60,494 bases of DNA. Source: Pyrodictiaceae archaeon (GTDB taxonomy: Archaea; Thermoproteota; Thermoprotei_A; Sulfolobales; WANQ01). The translations under genes and the position numbers were made by a program. Below the pieces are notes generated by a model, which was given only the letters and a program-made list of their open reading frames with translations, did no database searches and was not told the origin of the DNA. Below, in pieces: positions 46,084 to 59,098 of this stretch. Location of the stretch: positions 1-60,494 of the forward strand of contig WANQ01000014.1 in assembly GCA_015521735.1 (NCBI GenBank). Direction: 5' to 3'. Position 1 is the stretch's first letter; each line of letters begins with the position of its first letter.

Positions 46084-46539
46084 TTGACCATATGGATATT
46101 CTCCTCCAAGAACCTAGACCATATAAGGACAGCTTATGAGAGACTCATCTGGGGCTTCTGGGATAGAGATGCAGGTAAGAAGCAGCGTAAGAACTGGAGA
46201 AGCTTCATAAGAGCATACAATAACATCAAACCACACGACATAGCAGTATTCCAAATAGCTGGAAACGGCCACATACACGCCATAGGAGTCATAAAAGACA
46301 GATTCTACGACGACCAAACACCCATATGGCAAGAAGAAATAAAGGAGAAAAAAGTACTATTCCCATGGAGAGTAAGATTCACGCTTATGATATTCTCTGA
46401 GGAACCAATAACAACACACTACGTACACATAGAAAACTACATAGACGGATACGGCATAGGAGAAATAAGAGCACACGAAATACAATCAATACTAAGAGAA
46501 CTACACAATAAGCAAATCAAAGTAAATCTCCACATGTAA
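46084..46539 (+). CDS. EVE/PUA-like domain protein
   Basis: A 151-residue protein with the look of an EVE domain, a reader of modified bases often found in defence loci. WIFSSKNLDHIRTAYERLIWGF at the start (WIFSSK is the key part), IKPHDIAVFQIAGNGHIHAIGVI, YDDQTPIWQEE and FPWRVRFTLMIF follow the expected order of strands. It would read modified DNA or RNA. TTG start with GAGGTTAGA upstream. Confidence 0.6.
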   Translation: MTIWIFSSKNLDHIRTAYERLIWGFWDRDAGKKQRKNWRSFIRAYNNIKPHDIAVFQIAGNGHIHAIGVIKDRFYDDQTPIWQEEIKEKKVLFPWRVRFTLMIFSEEPITTHYVHIENYIDGYGIGEIRAHEIQSILRELHNKQIKVNLHM

Positions 46540-46798: not shown

Positions 46799-48592
46799 TT
46801 GGCGTCATCAGAGATAGCAACTTCAGTTACGAACTTAGGAAAACGCATGGAAACTAACGATAAGACTAAGCTAGTTATCTTAATAAGGACTGTAAAAAGA
46901 GGGCTTAGACATACTGAGAAAGTAATTGAGGGTGAAGAAGCAGAAAAGATCATAAATATGCTCAAAGAACTATCTTTAAAAAAGGGTATAGAAGAATTCA
47001 TTGAAAACATCGGACTTTGTGAGAAAAGAAACATTACCAGATGGTTAGATGACCTATTAAACAACGATCCATACAGTATTGATGCATTAAAAAGCCTGGA
47101 ATTCCTAGTAAACGACTTTACGGATAACATGAAGACGTCTATGAGGGAAGAAAGGAAACACGCACTAGGATTCGTATGGAATGGAAACGTATTCCTAGCA
47201 CACACAATATATGGTAGCAAAACCGTTACAATAGAACTTGACGTAATAGAACGATTAATAGATATAGATAACGTGCTACGATTTGTACACTTCTATAGAG
47301 AAGGCAGGAAGATAAAAATAAGATTCTACGAGAGACATAGGTCTGAATCCTTTAGGGAATGGCTTGGATTATCTGAGAGAGCTTACTATTATGAATACAA
47401 AGGTCCATTTAGCCTGATATCAGAGGCTCATGGAGTTGAAGTAGAATTACGTATATCTGAAAAGGATCTATACGATATTATAAAGGGTACACACAAAGGA
47501 ATAGTAATTACGGATAATATGATAGAGTTTCCTACTCCAATAAGATCTCTGAAGATCAAGAAGATCATACATGGAAGACGCGTAATACAAGACTTAAATG
47601 AACTTAAAAGGAAAGCATTACTATATGAATTAGGTGTAGATAAGCTCGTACAGAAATATACCTATATAGACTTTCTAATGAAGTTTAAGCCTAAATGTAC
47701 AGTCATAGATTATGAAGACTCAATTCAATTCGTAGGCGAAAACTGTGATGAAGAAATCCTTAAGGAAACAGGAAATGATAAAACTTATGCAGTATTCGCT
47801 GATGGTTCAAGGATAATGCTGTCAAATGAATTCGCGGAAACACTAACTTCAAGACTATTAAATAATGAAGAAACTATGATAGTATTTCTAACACAATCTC
47901 TACATAAGCGGATAAGCTTAGAACCCTATCGGATTCGAAGTTTCAAAGTGTATCACAAACTCCCATTACCAAGGGAATTAGAGGGATTAATAGAATATTA
48001 TAATGAACACGGTAATGTGAATGACCCATTATTGGAGTACGTTCTCGCTACCTCGATAATGGAGCTATTAGCTAACGAATTATCTAAACACGTTGAATAT
48101 ATGCCGATAGCATACGTATTTAACATGATGGGAAACATAATCCGTAAAAGATTGAAAGAAATACTGAGAAGGAGATATAGAGTTACAACAATTGAAGATG
48201 AGTACATAGAATTCAAGTCACGCGACTTCCTAGTAGGAAGAAACGAAGAAATAATAGATAGACTCGCTAAGGATATACTCAAGAAACTCAAAGAAAGCAA
48301 CATAAAAATATACATAATAGGCGTTAATGAGTCTGATAGATCAATAGAACCACTAAGACGATCCAATTTCAAGGATGAAAGGATTAACACAATAAAGAAA
48401 GGAGTTGTAAAGAGATTGGAGAAACAAGGCATGGTAGTTGATATAATTATGCGACCGATACCTGTTAATTCTAACGAGATACTACTAATACTAGTAGTCA
48501 TTCACAAGGACAGAAATCTACACAAGAAAACAGCTATTGAGGCATTGTCCAAGATGTTAGAGAGAAACTGTAGAAGTCTGGACATAGAATGA
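46799..48592 (+). CDS. Large unknown protein with an AlbA/Schlafen-like C-terminal part
   Basis: A 597-residue protein. Residues 1-470 are unrecognised and lysine/glutamate-rich. Residues 480-585 resemble an AlbA_2/Schlafen-type domain: EYIEFKSRDFLVGRNEEIID, then IKIYIIGVNES and IEPLRRSNFKDERI. The E-x-EFK core and the IIGV strand are the main similarities; they are weak. A TATA-like CTTTAAAAAGG lies about 45 bases before the TTG start. It converges on the broken TumE-like toxin, whose end it overlaps. Confidence 0.55.
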   Translation: MASSEIATSVTNLGKRMETNDKTKLVILIRTVKRGLRHTEKVIEGEEAEKIINMLKELSLKKGIEEFIENIGLCEKRNITRWLDDLLNNDPYSIDALKSLEFLVNDFTDNMKTSMREERKHALGFVWNGNVFLAHTIYGSKTVTIELDVIERLIDIDNVLRFVHFYREGRKIKIRFYERHRSESFREWLGLSERAYYYEYKGPFSLISEAHGVEVELRISEKDLYDIIKGTHKGIVITDNMIEFPTPIRSLKIKKIIHGRRVIQDLNELKRKALLYELGVDKLVQKYTYIDFLMKFKPKCTVIDYEDSIQFVGENCDEEILKETGNDKTYAVFADGSRIMLSNEFAETLTSRLLNNEETMIVFLTQSLHKRISLEPYRIRSFKVYHKLPLPRELEGLIEYYNEHGNVNDPLLEYVLATSIMELLANELSKHVEYMPIAYVFNMMGNIIRKRLKEILRRRYRVTTIEDEYIEFKSRDFLVGRNEEIIDRLAKDILKKLKESNIKIYIIGVNESDRSIEPLRRSNFKDERINTIKKGVVKRLEKQGMVVDIIMRPIPVNSNEILLILVVIHKDRNLHKKTAIEALSKMLERNCRSLDIE

Positions 48593-49318: not shown

Positions 49319-49816
49319 CTATTTTCGTAGTCTTACATACTTGGATTTTCCAAACAATCTATTATAGTAGTCAACGATTTCGTCGAGATCTCCTTCTACT
49401 GTTACTAGATAACCTGGTTCACCGGGCGTTCTATCCCATTTAGTTAACGGTATACTCGTTAGTATCGCGAATATAGGCTTACCCTTAATGAGTGCCAATG
49501 CCAGCGTATAGTGAATTCCCGATAACTGTCTTACGTGAAGTTCCCTAAGCTTCCTATTCTCAACCAAATTCCTAAGAAAACCTAGAGCCTCCTTTACACC
49601 TCTTTCCCCTCTATACTTCGAGTCAACCATAAGCCTCACCCTATCAAAGTAGACCACCATCTCCATAACCGTATGTTGACTAATCCATGGCGTAAGAATA
49701 CATAGCTCAGAATTAGTACTCGACTTCACCCCATACTCTCTAATCAATTCACGAAATACCTCAAAAGGAGCTTTACCACTCCCCGGGTAAAGGTATACCG
49801 AAATACTCTTCAACAA
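49319..49816 (-). CDS. Possible PLD-like domain protein
   Basis: A 165-residue protein. ELCILTPWISQHTVMEMVV and IHYTLALALIKGKPIFAILT have the order of strands seen in small phospholipase-D-like nucleases (an early strand ending in a P-W/F-I turn, then an H-x-K site), although the lysine spacing is not exact. It could be a nuclease-like or inactive relative. ATG or TTG start unclear; TATA-like AT-rich DNA lies upstream. Confidence 0.4.
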   Translation of the reverse strand: MLKSISVYLYPGSGKAPFEVFRELIREYGVKSSTNSELCILTPWISQHTVMEMVVYFDRVRLMVDSKYRGERGVKEALGFLRNLVENRKLRELHVRQLSGIHYTLALALIKGKPIFAILTSIPLTKWDRTPGEPGYLVTVEGDLDEIVDYYNRLFGKSKYVRLRK

Positions 49817-50587: not shown

Positions 50588-51064
50588 TCAAAGGCTTCTA
50601 ACCAATATCTGCATCATTGACGAAACAGTTCTTGCAGCAACACTCTCAATCACAGTTCTTCTACGCCCACTACTTGATTTTAGATCACTTAAGTCGATAG
50701 CCATATCGATGAAGACATTGAAGTACTTAAATAATGGTATCTTACCTCCTAAAAGCCTCTCTAAGAAGAATGTGTATTTTTCAGGGTTCTTAGAACTATA
50801 TGCTAATAATAAGTAAAGTAGTACTGCATAGCCTACATCTGCGGGAAGCTCTACGATTACTTTGTTACCGCTTCTTGAGATATCATATTCTAATGCATAT
50901 GCATCTAGTACGGAAATTATACTTCTAAACAGTTTATTAGCACGCTTTCCTCTTACCTTTATGAAGTCCTTTGAGTCTAAGGTTGGTTCTCTTAATATTA
51001 GTTCAATTCTTTTACCACTAGTCTTGTAAATTAGGAAATACAAGTTCTTGCCCATGTCTATCAT
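50588..51064 (-). CDS. Small unknown protein ending the BREX-like operon
   Basis: A 158-residue protein translated two bases after the PglZ-like gene. It is unrecognised: beta-rich start (LYFLIYKTSGKRIELILREP), then hydrophobic helices (GYAVLLYLLLAYSS). Size recalls the small accessory subunits of BREX (BrxA, BrxB, BrxF) but no P-loop or other motif supports identity. Another frame beginning near the stop reads SSQLLLHILLHNLKRLVNKV, so a lost C-terminal helix by frameshift is possible. Confidence 0.7.
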   Translation of the reverse strand: MIDMGKNLYFLIYKTSGKRIELILREPTLDSKDFIKVRGKRANKLFRSIISVLDAYALEYDISRSGNKVIVELPADVGYAVLLYLLLAYSSKNPEKYTFFLERLLGGKIPLFKYFNVFIDMAIDLSDLKSSSGRRRTVIESVAARTVSSMMQILVRSL

Positions 51065-51066
51065 CT

Positions 51067-51888
51067 CTATATAACTAGTAATGAAGCAATTACACTAAGA
51101 GAATGAGGTCTCCAACGGTGTTCAACCTCATATAAATCTACGTCCTTTACTATGACATCATAGCCATGGTCTGAAAGTAACATTATTACTCCATTGAACT
51201 CGCTTTTCAAGTGTATAACTTTACTATAGAGTTTAGATGTTAACGAGTACATAGTATTTATGATGTCGATGACACGTACATTTCTTAGCCGATGAATAGA
51301 ATAGTCGTACTCCCTAAAAACAATAGCATTTTTAGCATGTACTTTTCTAGCTATACTATAAGCAATATTCTTGAGCGAAAGACTGGCATTTAGGAGATAA
51401 TCATGTGGTTCAAGAATGAACTTATATGTTTCCGTGATACCACCCGGATTAATTAAGGGAAATATAAAAGGTTCCATATGCTCTTTCTTTAATCTATAAG
51501 CTATGTAGATGGCATCAGTAATTGACATTCCATCACAGATAATTACATATTTTGAATTGTTTTTAGAAACTTCAGCGAGAACCGTATAGGCTCTTCGAAG
51601 CATCTCTTGTGCTAATGCATGAATATTGATATTACGTTTATCTGCCAGTTCACTCACATGATCCAAGAACTTTCTTGCATACTGCAGTACACTCAATAGC
51701 CGAGCATCTTTGTGTAGGTTCTTCAATAAAAGAGGCTTACGATGAGCAGCTTGATGGAATACTTCAAAGATTATCTTGTACTCTTCCTCATGATCACTAA
51801 GATCGATGTATTGAGTAAGCATACTAAGAAGGCTATGAAGCTCGTTTATTAGTAGTGATGCTATTTCTAATTCTAAGATACTGTCCAT
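51067..51888 (-). CDS. PglZ-like protein (alkaline-phosphatase-type fold)
   Basis: A 273-residue protein. After an all-helical part (residues 1-105), a strand KYVIICDGMSITDAIYIAYR resembles the nucleophile region of PglZ (D-x-S/M after a hydrophobic strand), and VIMLLSDHGYDVIVKDVD carries the DHG metal motif of the PglZ/alkaline phosphatase superfamily. It is much shorter than bacterial PglZ. ATG start with GGTG upstream, 28 bases after the DUF499 ATPase. Assignment rests on these two motifs and the operon. Confidence 0.6.
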   Translation of the reverse strand: MDSILELEIASLLINELHSLLSMLTQYIDLSDHEEEYKIIFEVFHQAAHRKPLLLKNLHKDARLLSVLQYARKFLDHVSELADKRNINIHALAQEMLRRAYTVLAEVSKNNSKYVIICDGMSITDAIYIAYRLKKEHMEPFIFPLINPGGITETYKFILEPHDYLLNASLSLKNIAYSIARKVHAKNAIVFREYDYSIHRLRNVRVIDIINTMYSLTSKLYSKVIHLKSEFNGVIMLLSDHGYDVIVKDVDLYEVEHRWRPHSLSVIASLLVI

Positions 51889-51916
51889 GTATATAACACC
51901 GTCTAAACTGTTACCC

Positions 51917-54900
51917 TTAACTTTCTATGAGCCTAATCTTAGTTGGCGATAATCCTATTTTCTTAACCATCTGTAAAGCTGTATCCTTTTCAAATACCTT
52001 GACTAGACGCACTGCTAACCTGCAAGAAGTTATATCGTTTCTATAACGATTGAGGTATCTAATGAGGGTTTCAGCAAGTTCTGAGATTTTACTTGGAGAG
52101 CCCTTAATACTTATCTCAGTATCGGAGCTCGCTTGCACCCCAACGTACAATGACTTAATTTGTTGTACAAATTCTTTATTACGGGTAATACCTCCTAATG
52201 CTATATTAACGTTATCTACTCCTGATGTTTCAAAACCTATGACGCCTTTAGGTGGTGGTGGTGGTGGAGGAGGAACTTCTTTTGGTCTTATGACGAGATC
52301 ATCCTTCTCAACATCTATTTCAATTAATTTGAATTCCTCATCATCTGTTTGAATAACCCTACCACGAAGGAGGTTTCTGATAGCATTTTCTATGCTCTTC
52401 ACAGACTCGGGCTTTATTGGTATATCGGGCCATCCTTTGATGAACCCTTCTATGATCGAAGATATTGAGTATTTGTATTCTTTGTTTCTACGTAGTTCTT
52501 CCCGTACTATGTCGGTACTAATCATTTTCTTAATCCATTCTATGAGTTTAGCACTGATATTCTTCGCATCAGCTACTTTTAGCTTCCCTCTAACAGCATT
52601 AGCAATCCATACAGGTAACGATGCAAATACTTTGGAAATTCTCTGAGGTTGTTTATCAATTGATACGGTAAGATCGTATATCTCAATCTTACCTGTGGAG
52701 GGGTTATACGTTATAATTTTCTTGAAGAGACTAACAAAGTCTGAGGTAAAGTTTTGTACTGCAGCATTGCTAAGCTGTTGAGCATAAGTTTCAAGTCTTT
52801 CTCTAAACCGGGCTATTATCTCCATAACAATACGCTTGAATTCCTCTTCAGGTTTCCTTACAAGATCAAGCAGAGACTTATGACGCTCTGTTGTATGTTC
52901 GGTAAATTTGATCATGCCTCTATCAGATTTCAACATATTAACAACTATTTCACTAGCTTTTATCTCTGCTAAGGAATTCACTAATCTCCCTAGAATCTTT
53001 TCATCCACGTAAGGAACCACTATAGCAAACATATTTAGATTCTTTATCTTATTCTTGTTTTCATCTATATAGTTCCTAATGTTTTCAAGAATATCATCGA
53101 ACTTCACCTTTTCTATAAGTAGTTTATTAGCCATGTATGTTGGGAAGATCACTACTACGGTAAATTCATTTCTATTCTCCAGGTATTTGGTGAATTCGAT
53201 GCTCGTCTCCTCGAAGTCTTTAGTTCCCACAATTTCCATGCTTAATTGTGCATTGTGTCCAAACTCGCTTACTAGTTTGTACTCTTCAAGAAGCTTTTTT
53301 CTTATATATTCAATAGCGTCTTTAATCTTTAGCTTTCCTTCCTCATCTCTAAGTCTAAGAATTTCACCTTCATGGATATCTTTGAGTAGCTGATATGGAT
53401 TTTCGAATAGTGACGCATAGTAGTACTTACCTTCACTTCGTTCAATACTATGTATGTAGGGTGCTGCATCGAGTTTCTCTAATACGTCAGGATATCTATT
53501 AAGTCTAGTAGTATCGGCAACTCCTACTAAGGCTAGTAAAAGCTTTCTTTGAAATAAAGCCCTTCTGTCAAGCTCTTCTAATGATAGTGTATCTGGGCTC
53601 TTAGTCATCATCAGCATTAAGTCCCATGCATTATTTGTAACCGACTTAAGGTATATTGCCGATATTGCGCCTTTAACCATTTTAACTAGGTCGTAGTCCT
53701 TGGTCTCAGCCTCTAAGAATTCTAGAAATCTATTCCATGAAAGGACATCTCTACGCCATTCGTTTGCATAGCCTTCATCTAGTAGATGCTTAATATCATC
53801 ATGTTCCACGTGAGCTATGCTTATCAAGTATGCCTCCTCATCGGTTTCTAGAACCCTTCCAAGAATACTAGAGCTAATTTTAATTAGATCACGTAGGTGG
53901 TGTAGCTTTCTAGGAGCAAAATCAGTGCTGTATGCTGGAATTATGAGCTTTCTAACAAGTTCTTTATACATCGGTGAGAATGGATATGTTTTTCTAAGCT
54001 CATTGACGAACTTAATGGCTTCGGCTTCCCCCACTATCTCGGATAGTATATTCTGAAGCTCCTTGATCCTATCTTCCGAGAACACTTTATCCATTGGAGC
54101 TTTTAGCCTAACAATTCTTTTCTTTACAATTTCGAGAGCCTCCTCCTCGTCTACGTCCTTCACGCTTATGGGTGAAACTCTGCTAGTTCTCTCTTCAAAA
54201 TACTCCACGGCTTTTTTTAACCACTCTTTCTCGACCTCAACAGGCAGTCTAGCTACATCTCTCCACCTTTGAACATCCTGCATAGCGGACGCGTATACAA
54301 GTATTGCTGGAAACCTTCCACGAAGCTCATCAACTAACGCTGCAAGGAACATCAGAACCTTCCTCACGCTATCAATATAGTCTTTAGAGGCTCCTCTAAT
54401 AGCTTCAAATACAGCTGCGTATACTTCGTCAACGATGATTAATATAGGTACATTAATTGCTAATCTTGACAATATTTTGACAAACTCCCTCGCTGCATCC
54501 TTTGGCTCATATCTACTTGCTCTTTGTAATAGTTCTTCAAACGCGTTTAGCCCAGTCTTAAGAGCTTCTGATGCGAGATACCTCTCCTTATACTTCTTAA
54601 ATATTTTCTGCATGATGAGAAATAATGCTTCATACGGTGAGAGATCGCTTGGTATATGTTTTAGATCTATAGCTATAACTAAGGTTTTTCTAGCAACGTC
54701 GATTCTATAGTTAGTCTTTTCGGTAAGTATCTTAGTCTCTTCAGGTAAATTATCTACAATCTCATCCCATTTAAGAGGTGCTTTAGTATATAGATGATAG
54801 AGTAATGTCAAGAAGTGAGTTTTTCCAAGACCCATTGCATGAGTAAGTGAAAGGACAGGCACAGCTTCTGAAACCCTCTGTAGACTAGTGTTTACAGCTC

Positions 54901-55135
54901 TTAATGCATCTATCAATGGTTTTCGGAAGTAAGTAATCGATAGGAATGTTATGGGATCTAGGAACTCACTACTAACCTCTATGTAGGCTATGCCGAGATC
55001 TTTCTGTAGTATCATACCAAGGCTTGGAGCCAGTTTACCAACATATTCCTGTGGCTCAAGGTATCGGTACACTTTTGATGCCAGTTCACTAAGCTCAACG
55101 ACATCCTTAAGTCTTGGAAGTACCACGTTAGCCAC
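51917..55135 (-). CDS. DUF499 P-loop ATPase (BrxC/PglY-like)
   Basis: A 1072-residue ATPase. Walker A is HAMGLGKTHFLTLLYHLY near residue 98, as in DUF499 proteins (GxGKTH-LxxLYH), and Walker B is VPILIIVDEVYAAVFEA near 240. A later arginine/proline-rich region ends in a run of eight prolines near residue 965, followed by a C-terminal domain, also typical of COG1483. Such ATPases pair with DUF1156 methylases. GTG start overlaps the methylase stop by eight bases, indicating coupled translation. Confidence 0.85.
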   Translation of the reverse strand: MANVVLPRLKDVVELSELASKVYRYLEPQEYVGKLAPSLGMILQKDLGIAYIEVSSEFLDPITFLSITYFRKPLIDALRAVNTSLQRVSEAVPVLSLTHAMGLGKTHFLTLLYHLYTKAPLKWDEIVDNLPEETKILTEKTNYRIDVARKTLVIAIDLKHIPSDLSPYEALFLIMQKIFKKYKERYLASEALKTGLNAFEELLQRASRYEPKDAAREFVKILSRLAINVPILIIVDEVYAAVFEAIRGASKDYIDSVRKVLMFLAALVDELRGRFPAILVYASAMQDVQRWRDVARLPVEVEKEWLKKAVEYFEERTSRVSPISVKDVDEEEALEIVKKRIVRLKAPMDKVFSEDRIKELQNILSEIVGEAEAIKFVNELRKTYPFSPMYKELVRKLIIPAYSTDFAPRKLHHLRDLIKISSSILGRVLETDEEAYLISIAHVEHDDIKHLLDEGYANEWRRDVLSWNRFLEFLEAETKDYDLVKMVKGAISAIYLKSVTNNAWDLMLMMTKSPDTLSLEELDRRALFQRKLLLALVGVADTTRLNRYPDVLEKLDAAPYIHSIERSEGKYYYASLFENPYQLLKDIHEGEILRLRDEEGKLKIKDAIEYIRKKLLEEYKLVSEFGHNAQLSMEIVGTKDFEETSIEFTKYLENRNEFTVVVIFPTYMANKLLIEKVKFDDILENIRNYIDENKNKIKNLNMFAIVVPYVDEKILGRLVNSLAEIKASEIVVNMLKSDRGMIKFTEHTTERHKSLLDLVRKPEEEFKRIVMEIIARFRERLETYAQQLSNAAVQNFTSDFVSLFKKIITYNPSTGKIEIYDLTVSIDKQPQRISKVFASLPVWIANAVRGKLKVADAKNISAKLIEWIKKMISTDIVREELRRNKEYKYSISSIIEGFIKGWPDIPIKPESVKSIENAIRNLLRGRVIQTDDEEFKLIEIDVEKDDLVIRPKEVPPPPPPPPKGVIGFETSGVDNVNIALGGITRNKEFVQQIKSLYVGVQASSDTEISIKGSPSKISELAETLIRYLNRYRNDITSCRLAVRLVKVFEKDTALQMVKKIGLSPTKIRLIES

Positions 55136-58100
55136 CTCGATATAATGCCACTAATACTTTGCCAGCGAATTCACGGGTAAATTCAGATAACCCCACAAGT
55201 CTAAGCTCATCGCTTCTAGCAGTACGTAAGAGGAATAGAGCTGTAGCAGCTACTCTACGGCTTATGGGCATGACTGACAGTATGCTTTTCATAGCCTTAG
55301 AGACATCCTCTTTAGGCTGCTCACTTATAAGTTTAAGTAAGTGAATAGCTTGTCCAGCACCTGTCCTAATGAGGACATTAACACGTTTATTAATAGCATC
55401 ATAGCACTCATTTCCAAAGAGTACTTTATAAGTCTTAGACGAAGATCTCTTAGTTGATCGGCTAAGAAGACCAAAGTTTACTAATGCTTGGTAAGACGCG
55501 TTTAAGATCTTGCATATCTTCTCAACAAAGTCATAAGCTAGTTCTCTTGAATTCGTGTAACGTGTGGCAGTCCAGAATACTAGGTATGCACGAGTAAAAT
55601 TATCCGTAGTGAGCACCTCGTTTATTGCTTGTTCATCTAAATTAGCTTTTTTAAGAGCTTTTCTGAGCCATTCTTCAAGCAGTATCGTGGATGCAAGATA
55701 GACTGCAGCTGGGTAAAGTACCTTCTCGAAGAACGCTAATGCTTTCTGGAATCTAGCCTTATCTAAGACCTCTTCTATGTCGCCAAAGTACTCAAGAAGA
55801 CTCTTCTGAGCGGATAGATCTAGTTTATCGATGTCGGGGTTCCATATTCTTGTGGCACCAGCTATACCGCCAGCAAGACCCATTATGAACAGCTCTGGAC
55901 CTGTGGCTTTAGAATTATATGCGCTAGCGAGAGAGTCCAATACGGCATCAACAATAGCCTTCTTAATGGCTTCATCTTGTATAACGATGGATGGATCCCT
56001 AGCTCCAGTGACTAAGCTACCAACAATGTTCCTTTTTCTAAGCACTAGTATTAGGGATGTAAAGAACGCTGAGGTTAATAGCTCAGCACGTTTCTGTTTC
56101 ATCTCAGTCCATACAGGCCATGTTTTGCTTAAAGTGAATCCTGCTGCATAAAGGGAGGATAGTATTGCTTCCCAAGCATCCGGATCACTATGCGTAAACC
56201 ATACTATCAGTAAACCCTCATCTTTAAGAACATTGTTAACTTGACGGAAGAACTCCCACATTCTCAGAACATACCAAGCACCCGTGAACGGTTGCTTCTC
56301 AATAAGTATAACGCTCTTACCACTAAGATCTCCAATCTTATCCCGTCCCTTCCTAGCAATAATCTCGGCCTCTCTCGGTAAGACAGGTAGGTATGGCGAC
56401 CAACCCTCAATAAATAATTCAACTCTCCCACGTGTTGGATCTCTGTTAAAGAGATAACCCTCATCTATAGCTGGCTGAAGCATAATCCGTAAGAATTGCC
56501 AGAAAAATTCCATAAGATCACTATAGAAGTGTTGAGCAAGATATGGAGGATCAACATTAACAACATCAACCTTTCTATCACCAAGAATTTCACTAAGCTT
56601 TCTAGCATCACCACAATAAACTTCAACACAATCACCGAGACCTTCAATCCATTCGGTTAGAAGTTTTAAAACAGGAAGAGAACCCCCACGAGTGCCTCCA
56701 ACAGAAACTATGTGTGGTTCATAAACCCATTGAAGAGCTTCATCTACTCGTTTAGCCTCACAATATTCTAACCCCAGTACTATACTTCTTCTCTCTAAAT
56801 AGTGGTTGGTCAGATTCTCAATGGTTGAAGTACTATAGTCCCATCTTGTTGTTATATTATTAAAGTTTGTAAATTTACTAATTCCAAGTACTAAATATAT
56901 TGATATAGCAACTCCATATTCTCCTTTTTCTTTAACCAATTGCTCTACTCGGTCTCTTACGTATCTGAGAAGCTTGAGAAGTATTAATAGTTGCCTTGGG
57001 TTGAAGAGTTCGTACCAGTACTCTATTCCGAGATCCCTTATGGGTTTAAAGACTTCATTTTCTGACGGTATTTGGGCGTCAGGTAGTACGTCACGTAGCT
57101 CGTTTATCTGTTTAGCTAGGTCTAGGTATGCTTTTGTGAAGGCTTCTTTATCCTCGTCTCCTGCCGGCTTAAAACCTTGTGGAGTATCTTTTACTAGTAT
57201 TATGTGTGTTTCTAATAGCTCGTTAATTTTCTCTTCGGCTTTCTCGATGTCACCTCTCAATGCTATTTCTAATAGTTCCTTATGTTTCCGAATCCATGTT
57301 TTTAATGCTACGTCTTTACTTATTGGGGTTCCGCAGTATGGGCATCTAAGTCTTTCAAACGTTGTTTTGCTACGTGATATTTCTACAATGAATGTTTTGT
57401 TGTCCTTGTCTATCTTGAGCTCTATATAGGGATCTTTCTTTCCGAGTTTTGTGCTGTGGATTATAGGTATTAGTCCTCTGCACTTAGGGTTTGGGCATCG
57501 ATATCCTCTAGCTATAATGTAGTTATACGCGTCTGGTGTGTAGTATTGGCTTAACTCCCTTCGCACCCAATCTATTAGTTTTTCAACCTCCTTCTTAACA
57601 TCTTCATAGAGCTTTCTGCCATACTTAGCAGGATATTCGAGAGTTGCTTTTAGAATTAGGTATGCAACGGGATTGTATTCTATTGCTATTGTATGAAATC
57701 CTAATCTTAGTGCTTCTAGAGGGATTGAGCCTCCACCAGCCATAGGATCTACAACAACTATGTCTTTAGGCTCCTTACCTGTATGCTTTCTAACGAGCTC
57801 TGCCACATATTTTCTATCTGGATTTACAAGGTATAGAACATTGTAAGGCACGTCACGTACTTTATTAAGACCAACAGCATGAACGAATTCATTCATTGAC
57901 GCACTTTCCGGGAGAAGGGCTGCCAGGGTGAGAACTCGAGCTGTAGCAGTAGGTCTTCTAGCGAGGTAGGGATGTAGGTTGCTGAGTTTAGGAATTCTTA
58001 TAAATCCAGCCTCTTTCCTTGCTACTGAATTTAAGTTATCTAAGGGTATTTTTGCTTCAGCTAATGTCTTCAAACCACTAGCACCACATAGAATTCTGTT

Positions 58101-58181
58101 ACTGCTAAACTTAAGGATTAACGCTAAATAGTGTGAGTGATGTTGCGACATGTTGTCTGGGTCTATGCCTGTATTTGCCAT
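55128..58181 (-). CDS. DUF1156 adenine-specific DNA methyltransferase with zinc ribbon
   Basis: A 1017-residue N6-adenine methyltransferase (COG1743). DUF1156 starts it (IPLDNLNSVARKEAGF, LHPYLARRPTATARVLTL); motif I is VVDPMAGGGSIPLEALRLG near 150, a zinc ribbon (CPNPKCRG and CPYCGTPI) lies inside at 240-300, and motif IV is VVNVDPPYLAQHFYSDL near 555. The order of motifs is normal for the family. It would methylate self DNA for the system. ATG start; a TATA box and an inverted repeat lie upstream. First gene of the four-gene operon. Confidence 0.9.
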   Translation of the reverse strand: MANTGIDPDNMSQHHSHYLALILKFSSNRILCGASGLKTLAEAKIPLDNLNSVARKEAGFIRIPKLSNLHPYLARRPTATARVLTLAALLPESASMNEFVHAVGLNKVRDVPYNVLYLVNPDRKYVAELVRKHTGKEPKDIVVVDPMAGGGSIPLEALRLGFHTIAIEYNPVAYLILKATLEYPAKYGRKLYEDVKKEVEKLIDWVRRELSQYYTPDAYNYIIARGYRCPNPKCRGLIPIIHSTKLGKKDPYIELKIDKDNKTFIVEISRSKTTFERLRCPYCGTPISKDVALKTWIRKHKELLEIALRGDIEKAEEKINELLETHIILVKDTPQGFKPAGDEDKEAFTKAYLDLAKQINELRDVLPDAQIPSENEVFKPIRDLGIEYWYELFNPRQLLILLKLLRYVRDRVEQLVKEKGEYGVAISIYLVLGISKFTNFNNITTRWDYSTSTIENLTNHYLERRSIVLGLEYCEAKRVDEALQWVYEPHIVSVGGTRGGSLPVLKLLTEWIEGLGDCVEVYCGDARKLSEILGDRKVDVVNVDPPYLAQHFYSDLMEFFWQFLRIMLQPAIDEGYLFNRDPTRGRVELFIEGWSPYLPVLPREAEIIARKGRDKIGDLSGKSVILIEKQPFTGAWYVLRMWEFFRQVNNVLKDEGLLIVWFTHSDPDAWEAILSSLYAAGFTLSKTWPVWTEMKQKRAELLTSAFFTSLILVLRKRNIVGSLVTGARDPSIVIQDEAIKKAIVDAVLDSLASAYNSKATGPELFIMGLAGGIAGATRIWNPDIDKLDLSAQKSLLEYFGDIEEVLDKARFQKALAFFEKVLYPAAVYLASTILLEEWLRKALKKANLDEQAINEVLTTDNFTRAYLVFWTATRYTNSRELAYDFVEKICKILNASYQALVNFGLLSRSTKRSSSKTYKVLFGNECYDAINKRVNVLIRTGAGQAIHLLKLISEQPKEDVSKAMKSILSVMPISRRVAATALFLLRTARSDELRLVGLSEFTREFAGKVLVALYRGG

Positions 58182-58678: not shown

Positions 58679-59098
58679 TTAGTTCAATCCTATGAATGTT
58701 TCAAGTATTTTGGTTTTTCCTACTAGCCTTACCAGTTCTATTCTTCCTTTCACTTCCCACCATTGTTGTTGGTGTTATTGGTAGCCTGCATCTCTTAGAA
58801 TACTCCAGGATTCTTCGTCGAAGTATAGTCTATCGTATGCTGTTAGTAGTGCTGGTAGAATGAATAACCTTATATTCTTGCCTAAAACGTGTTTCCGTAT
58901 AACTTCCTCTTCTTCTCTAGGTAGTGGACCAGTTGTTTTGGAGACATCTAGTACTATTCCTTTAGCCCAGTACCTATCGGTAATTGATAGCTGGTAGGGT
59001 CTGGAAAGGTACTTGGATTCTACTTCGATGTAGAAAGGGCTAACGCCTTTAGCTAGCGTTAACCCCTCCTTGATAATATCCTCTACTATTAAGGGCAT
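58679..59098 (-). pseudogene. Unknown gene interrupted by an in-frame TAA
   Basis: From ATG the frame gives 107 residues (SPFYIEVESKYLSRPYQL, then WAKGIVLDVSKTTGPLPREE) to a TAA at 58775-58777. The same frame continues 31 codons with coding character (QQWWEVKGRIELVRLVGKTK) to a TAA at 58679. Either the short form is the real end or a nonsense mutation has cut the gene. The family is unknown; E-x-E and D-x-S strands are reminiscent of a nuclease fold but this is weak. Confidence 0.5.

Follow-up and report, generated by a model that had tools for sequence, protein, structure and literature searches.

A four-gene archaeal operon as a candidate helicase-free, PglZ-bearing branch of the DUF499-centred BREX-Related systems

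Four tightly packed minus-strand genes, for a methyltransferase (MTase), an ATPase, a PglZ-like protein and a small protein, raise the question of whether the genome of a heat-loving archaeon encodes a reduced BREX system, a member of another defence family, or a set with some other task. The initial annotation had read them as a stripped-down relative of BREX. The window analysed here is the entire contig G000:C14 (60,494 bases), from a genome of 2.03 Mb that is estimated to be 100% complete. Its listing of open reading frames (ORFs) places the genes as follows, together with one further stretch of interest:

50588..51064, minus strand: small alpha+beta subunit of family A2/A7, perhaps remotely DUF7680-like; ORF of 158 aa, ATG start (conservation, AF2, hhalign)
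51067..51888, minus strand: short stand-alone PglZ-like predicted metallo-phosphodiesterase; ORF of 273 aa, ATG start (conserved residues, fold search, hhalign)
51917..55135, minus strand: DUF499-family AAA+ ATPase, HmaC-like; ORF of 1072 aa, GTG start (PADLOC, NCBIfam, hhalign)
55128..58181, minus strand: DUF1156-family DNA adenine-type MTase, HmaB/BR-MTase-like; ORF of 1017 aa, ATG start (Pfam, PADLOC, homologue alignment)
58105..58181, minus strand: A+T-rich stretch, possible archaeal promoter region (sequence inspection alone)

The MTase and ATPase genes overlap by 8 bases, the PglZ-like gene follows the ATPase gene after 28 bases and the small gene comes another 2 bases on, so the coordinates and spacings first given were borne out, and every motif first quoted (DPMAGGGS, DPPY, GLGKTH, IIVDE, polyproline, ICDGM, SDHGYD) was found.

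The four proteins

The MTase was originally placed in the DUF1156 adenine-type family, an assignment upheld by a Pfam DUF1156 match above cut-off (3e-7) and by its zinc-ribbon and DPPY motifs. PADLOC HmaB matched at 8e-41 and NCBIfam DUF1156_antiphage at 6e-34, yet the latter lies far below that model's cut-off. The protein carries the SAM motif DPMAGGGS, a zinc-ribbon TRD insert (C229/C234, C280/C283) and DPPY, and motif I, both Cys pairs and DPPY are invariant among its four-gene homologues, with which it shares 50-52% identity. Because homologous MTases begin about 36 codons past the first ATG, translation probably starts at 58073, where a TTG lies in frame 36 codons into the ORF; the A+T-rich stretch ahead of it may be an archaeal promoter region. 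Going by the close gene spacing, one promoter may serve all four genes, as first proposed.

The ATPase shows Walker A (GLGKTH) and Walker B (IIVDE) motifs and a polyproline linker ahead of the C-terminal domain. Its single-sequence matches are weak (PADLOC HmaC, 1e-6; NCBIfam DUF499, 3e-5, far below cut-off), and profile-profile comparison with hhalign gave 99.6-99.9% against DUF499 proteins over 600-750 columns, against 22-23% over fewer than 80 columns for BrxC. By these profiles we class it as a DUF499 protein (HmaC; BR/Hma family), as the initial annotation had it, and not as BrxC. Since the ATPase is DUF499 rather than BrxC/PglY, the system is closer to the DUF499-centred BREX-Related (BR)/Hma systems, defined by Rakesh & Krishnan (NAR 2026; PMC12839542), than to BREX itself; on this point the BREX-like reading first proposed needs changing.

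The 273-residue protein matched no curated PglZ profile among the Pfam, PADLOC and NCBIfam models, and the homologue at locus L030 alone reached PADLOC PglZ (E 0.05). Its candidate active-site residues are D119, T152, D195-x3-H199, D240-H241 and H257, which is the order of the alkaline-phosphatase two-metal site. The first six homologues have all seven without exception and, by inspection of the alignment, the full D, T, D-x3-H, D-H, H pattern is kept in 11 of 11 aligned sequences down to about 20% identity, and these residues are therefore under selection. With hhalign, the D-x3-H...DHG half scored 82% against archaeal alkaline-phosphatase proteins and 57% against BREX PglZ. A Foldseek search with the AF2 model (pLDDT 71, poor after residue 242) placed PorX PglZ crystal forms at ranks 1, 3 and 4; rank 13 was a BREX BrxC-BrxB/PglZ complex, and the E-values were weak (0.04-0.45, best 0.04). 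Residue pattern and weak fold and profile scores, taken together, lead us to accept the protein as a predicted PglZ/alkaline-phosphatase member; the fold check that might have overturned the original PglZ-like reading came out in its favour. A Pfam PglZ search of 200 genomes of the phylum returned mainly proteins of 340-440 aa.

The small protein is modelled by AF2 as b-b-b-a-b-b-a-a-a-a (pLDDT 71, confident over residues 10-90), a predicted non-P-loop fold. A fold search with this model gave hits of TM about 0.2 alone, which are meaningless, and a profile search of the PDB gave no match. Comparison with BrxA and BrxB, as first suggested, yielded a match to neither; a ThermoDBP-like ssDNA-binding identity was rejected for want of a PDB profile match, and a BstA-like identity (PADLOC E 9e-4) found no other support. 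Against DUF7680 proteins, hhalign gave a collinear match at E 6e-4 and Prob 29%, where unrelated control pairs gave 0.04 or worse. The DUF7680 proteins compared (DUF7680 matches of 8e-39 and 1e-44) sit between the DUF499 and DUF1156 genes of Hma/BR loci, and the remote kinship indicated by the profiles is suggestive only. The make-up of the model also resembles, by description, the four-stranded sheet and five helices published for DUF3780. Small ORFs of about 130-180 aa adjoin the DUF499 gene in helicase-bearing Thermoproteota BR loci as well (L128, L134-L146, L148-L154), and are remotely like a plasmid DUF7680 pair (hhalign 73%).

The family of the small protein is present in every complete MTase-ATPase-PglZ-small locus. 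Stand-alone homologues of about 168 aa occur in many genomes of one family (f5) of the same taxonomic order, the family of an Acidilobaceae sister locus, and are not beside defence genes in the stretches read. Their similar neighbourhoods in many genomes (for example L062:5132-5635, L065:9971-10474 and L067:9882-10382) point to a conserved gene of the chromosome that is kin to a defence subunit. The fourth subunit was first called unfamiliar; that it is neither BrxA nor BrxB stands, and these homologues and the weak DUF7680 match make it less of a stranger.

A Pfam search of the window found no classical restriction nuclease adjoining the operon, and the contig end (60494) lies 2.3 kb upstream of it, which cuts off the upstream neighbourhood. 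Two ORFs of unknown family without a Pfam match lie on either side (49319-49816 and 58775-59098, both minus strand). Nearby are 46084-46539, with a weak NCBIfam PRK00809 match (1e-5) and an EVE-like look by eye, and 46799-48592, a 597-aa protein of unknown family.

Distribution and the missing helicase

The order MTase-ATPase-PglZ-small is found in the window and in L020/L027 (Thermoprotei B14_G17), L021, L022/L028, L026 (Ca. Methanodesulfokora washburnensis) and L029 (a Bathyarchaeota MAG). The four genes do, as anticipated, occur together in other Thermoproteota/TACK genomes, and with the gene order and close packing repeated in L020, L021, L022, L026 and L029, the arrangement is far beyond chance. 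Desulfurococcales-like, Korarchaeia and Bathyarchaeota lineages are spanned, so that the set is not confined to the lineage of the window, and its recurrence across such distant archaea marks it as a genuine variant of sparse distribution rather than a broken copy. A simple protein search found the PglZ in 5 of 398 genomes of the phylum, sparse and widely spread. Two further loci are incomplete: a short contig with ATPase-PglZ-small (L005, PglZ 72% identical) and a cut close relative (L025, MTase 81% identical). Homologue sets were small (6-18 sequences), structure models modest, and several loci MAG fragments. Dev_Cell_Death-domain genes lie near two of the four-gene loci (L026, 8636-9244; L028, 4159-4758).

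Sister loci vary around this plan. In an Acidilobaceae locus (L030/L004) BrxL stands between ATPase and PglZ (Pfam BrxL_ATPase 3e-111, BrxL_N 1e-25), and L117 likewise has BrxL beside the ATPase, matching L030 up to the contig end, where PglZ would follow; BrxL in these two loci ties the PglZ branch to BREX. The operon had been described as lacking helicase, BrxA/BrxB and BrxL, which is accurate for the window, but BrxL does occur in these two sister loci. In three loci (L115, L116, L031) the order MTase-ATPase-PglZ is present and the small family absent, the small-gene candidates beside them being unrelated to it; upstream of its MTase, L031 carries a helicase of another kind, the DEAD type.

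An SNF2/RapA (HmaA-type) helicase is encoded in 29 of the 38 other Thermoproteota DUF1156 loci read, whereas a PglZ of the window's family, sought by HMM and, in short proteins, by an intact D-x3-H...DHG[YFH] pattern, is found in none of the 38; conversely, RapA helicase is absent from all 11 PglZ-type loci. The Fisher p for an exclusion with counts of this size is about 1e-5, an optimistic figure since the loci are related and some contigs short. In a tree with 42 other MTases, those of the 11 PglZ-type loci all group in one clade (SH-aLRT 100, branch 1.13), apart from the rest. None of 11 plasmid DUF1156 loci read showed a PglZ. No SNF2-type helicase was found in the window's genome beyond reverse gyrase, XPB and Hef matches, and a RapA-helicase profile gave no full-length match in G000, G017 or G040 (99-100% complete). 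Four other operon-bearing genomes (G173, G037, G294, G419) have RapA helicases on other contigs, and a helicase could act in trans, with Lhr, Hef and XPB present in the window's genome.

Other DUF1156-DUF499 loci show arrangements of their own. Five (L119, L121, L122, L134, L136) are without RapA helicase and have nearby a trio of a PD-(D/E)XK protein of about 600-630 aa, an SF1 helicase of about 525 aa and a protein of about 374 aa, a conserved group that is possibly another effector swap. Directly downstream of the RapA helicase in several Thermoproteota BR loci lies a metallo-beta-lactamase-fold protein (L135:445-1734 and equivalents in L137, L138, L139, L140, L141 and L148); Pfam gave an RMMBL domain for L135, and the others were judged by look.

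Proposed function and alternative readings

We consider it probable that the operon encodes a compact modification-restriction defence module of four proteins, from a sub-lineage of the DUF499-centred BR/Hma systems that has no helicase. Judging from its family, the DUF1156 MTase would mark self by methylating adenines within a particular sequence motif of the host's genome. The DUF499 AAA+ protein would bind ATP and DNA and assemble the complex, in a role homologous to that of BrxC in BREX. The two-metal PglZ may nick or cleave unmarked invading DNA as a nuclease/phosphodiesterase, occupying, as the mutual exclusion suggests, the effector place of the ordinary BR SNF2/RapA helicase-nuclease. 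The small alpha+beta protein might be a structural adaptor or might read DNA, taking the position that DUF7680/DUF3780 fills in BR loci. This mechanism is backed by analogy: the PglZ of Type-1 BREX has metal-dependent nuclease activity (PMC12839542), and methylation and restriction both require the BrxB-BrxC-PglZ-PglX module, BrxL being dispensable for methylation (PMC13326643).

The chief competitor, which we regard as unlikely though worth weighing, is that the operon is simply a Type-3 BR system of the published kind that has lost its helicase (and iSTAND), or in which these went unannotated or lie elsewhere in the genome. Stand-alone PglZ, DUF499 and DUF1156 MTase define that type, and the four operon-bearing genomes with RapA helicases on other contigs fit a displaced helicase; yet the three near-complete genomes searched by profile have none, no RapA helicase stands beside any of the PglZ-type loci seen, even though the operon is preserved whole over phylum-level distance, and the small protein, on a modest model a non-P-loop fold, would be unlike an iSTAND. 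Appreciably less credible is a solitary modification or epigenetic regulator, in which MTase, ATPase and phosphodiesterase act on a nucleotide signal or RNA and not in restriction. The PglZ of PorX cleaves cyclic and linear oligonucleotides (work cited in PMC12839542), no classical restriction nuclease adjoins the operon and the small-protein family has stand-alone chromosomal members, all in keeping with a regulator; the patchy distribution (5 of 398 genomes), BrxL in sister loci and relatives that are known defence genes speak for defence instead. A true minimal BREX, with a PglX-BrxC-PglZ core and the small protein in place of BrxB, seems very improbable: gene content mirrors the core needed for both activities (PMC13326643) and BrxL occurs in L030/L117, but the assignment of the ATPase to DUF499 already disfavours it, the MTase is of DUF1156 type, the small protein matches neither BrxA nor BrxB, and the window's PglZ is without the long N-terminal part of BREX PglZ.

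Returning to the helicase-free BR module, we would go further only tentatively, at somewhat less than even confidence: the operon may be a complete working four-protein immune system without a translocating helicase, in which a near-bare PglZ domain is the sole DNA-cleaving effector. It would form an archaeal branch that, with its BrxL-bearing cousins, bridges DUF499-centred BR and BREX, and its small subunit would be of one family with a protein conserved on the chromosomes of Acidilobaceae-family archaea. The role of PglZ in BREX-type immunity, and the minimum needed for it, have only recently begun to be clarified. A set kept over phylum-scale distances without a helicase, and with PglZ reduced nearly to its catalytic domain, would offer about the smallest natural test of the idea that PglZ is the nuclease. 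The relationship between BR and BREX is touched both by the PglZ/RapA exclusion, within the DUF1156 loci that were read for one phylum, and by the existence of BrxL-bearing cousins.

Comparison with known systems

The closest published kind is Type-3 BR, described in PMC12839542 as a BrxHII-like helicase with stand-alone PglZ, DUF499 and DUF1156 MTase, and iSTAND in 82%. The window system shares the DUF499 ATPase (by hhalign), a DUF1156 N6-type MTase with Zn-finger TRD insert (by Pfam and the conserved Cys pairs), a stand-alone PglZ-like protein with its active-site residues (seven residues in 11 homologues; weak fold matches, PorX first) and the lack of an adjacent stand-alone nuclease. It differs in that the published type keeps a helicase, whereas no RapA/SNF2 helicase of that kind was found in the PglZ-type loci read or in the window's genome; in its small gene, whose product on a modest model has no P-loop sheet, is not similar to BrxB and may or may not correspond to the iSTAND; and in the BrxL of its sister loci. 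The published survey may itself include some PglZ-type loci.

Hma, as defined in PADLOC, and Type-1 and Type-2 BR share the HmaB-like MTase, the HmaC-like ATPase and a small gene in the operon (DUF7680 in the examples read, DUF3780 in published Type-2), but of the HmaA, HmaB and HmaC set the window lacks the HmaA helicase and has PglZ instead. With BREX Type 1 the system has in common the logic of MTase, AAA+ ATPase and PglZ, and BrxL in two sister loci; its ATPase is not BrxC/DUF6079 by hhalign, its MTase is of DUF1156 type and not PglX, BrxA and BrxB genes are absent, and its PglZ consists of hardly more than the catalytic domain. PorX, a PglZ-domain response regulator, is the best fold match of the 273-aa protein, which differs in having no receiver domain and a different operon context. 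On these comparisons the window system would work like a BR/BREX system, and the most fitting description is a branch of the BR family that has PglZ and lacks the helicase.
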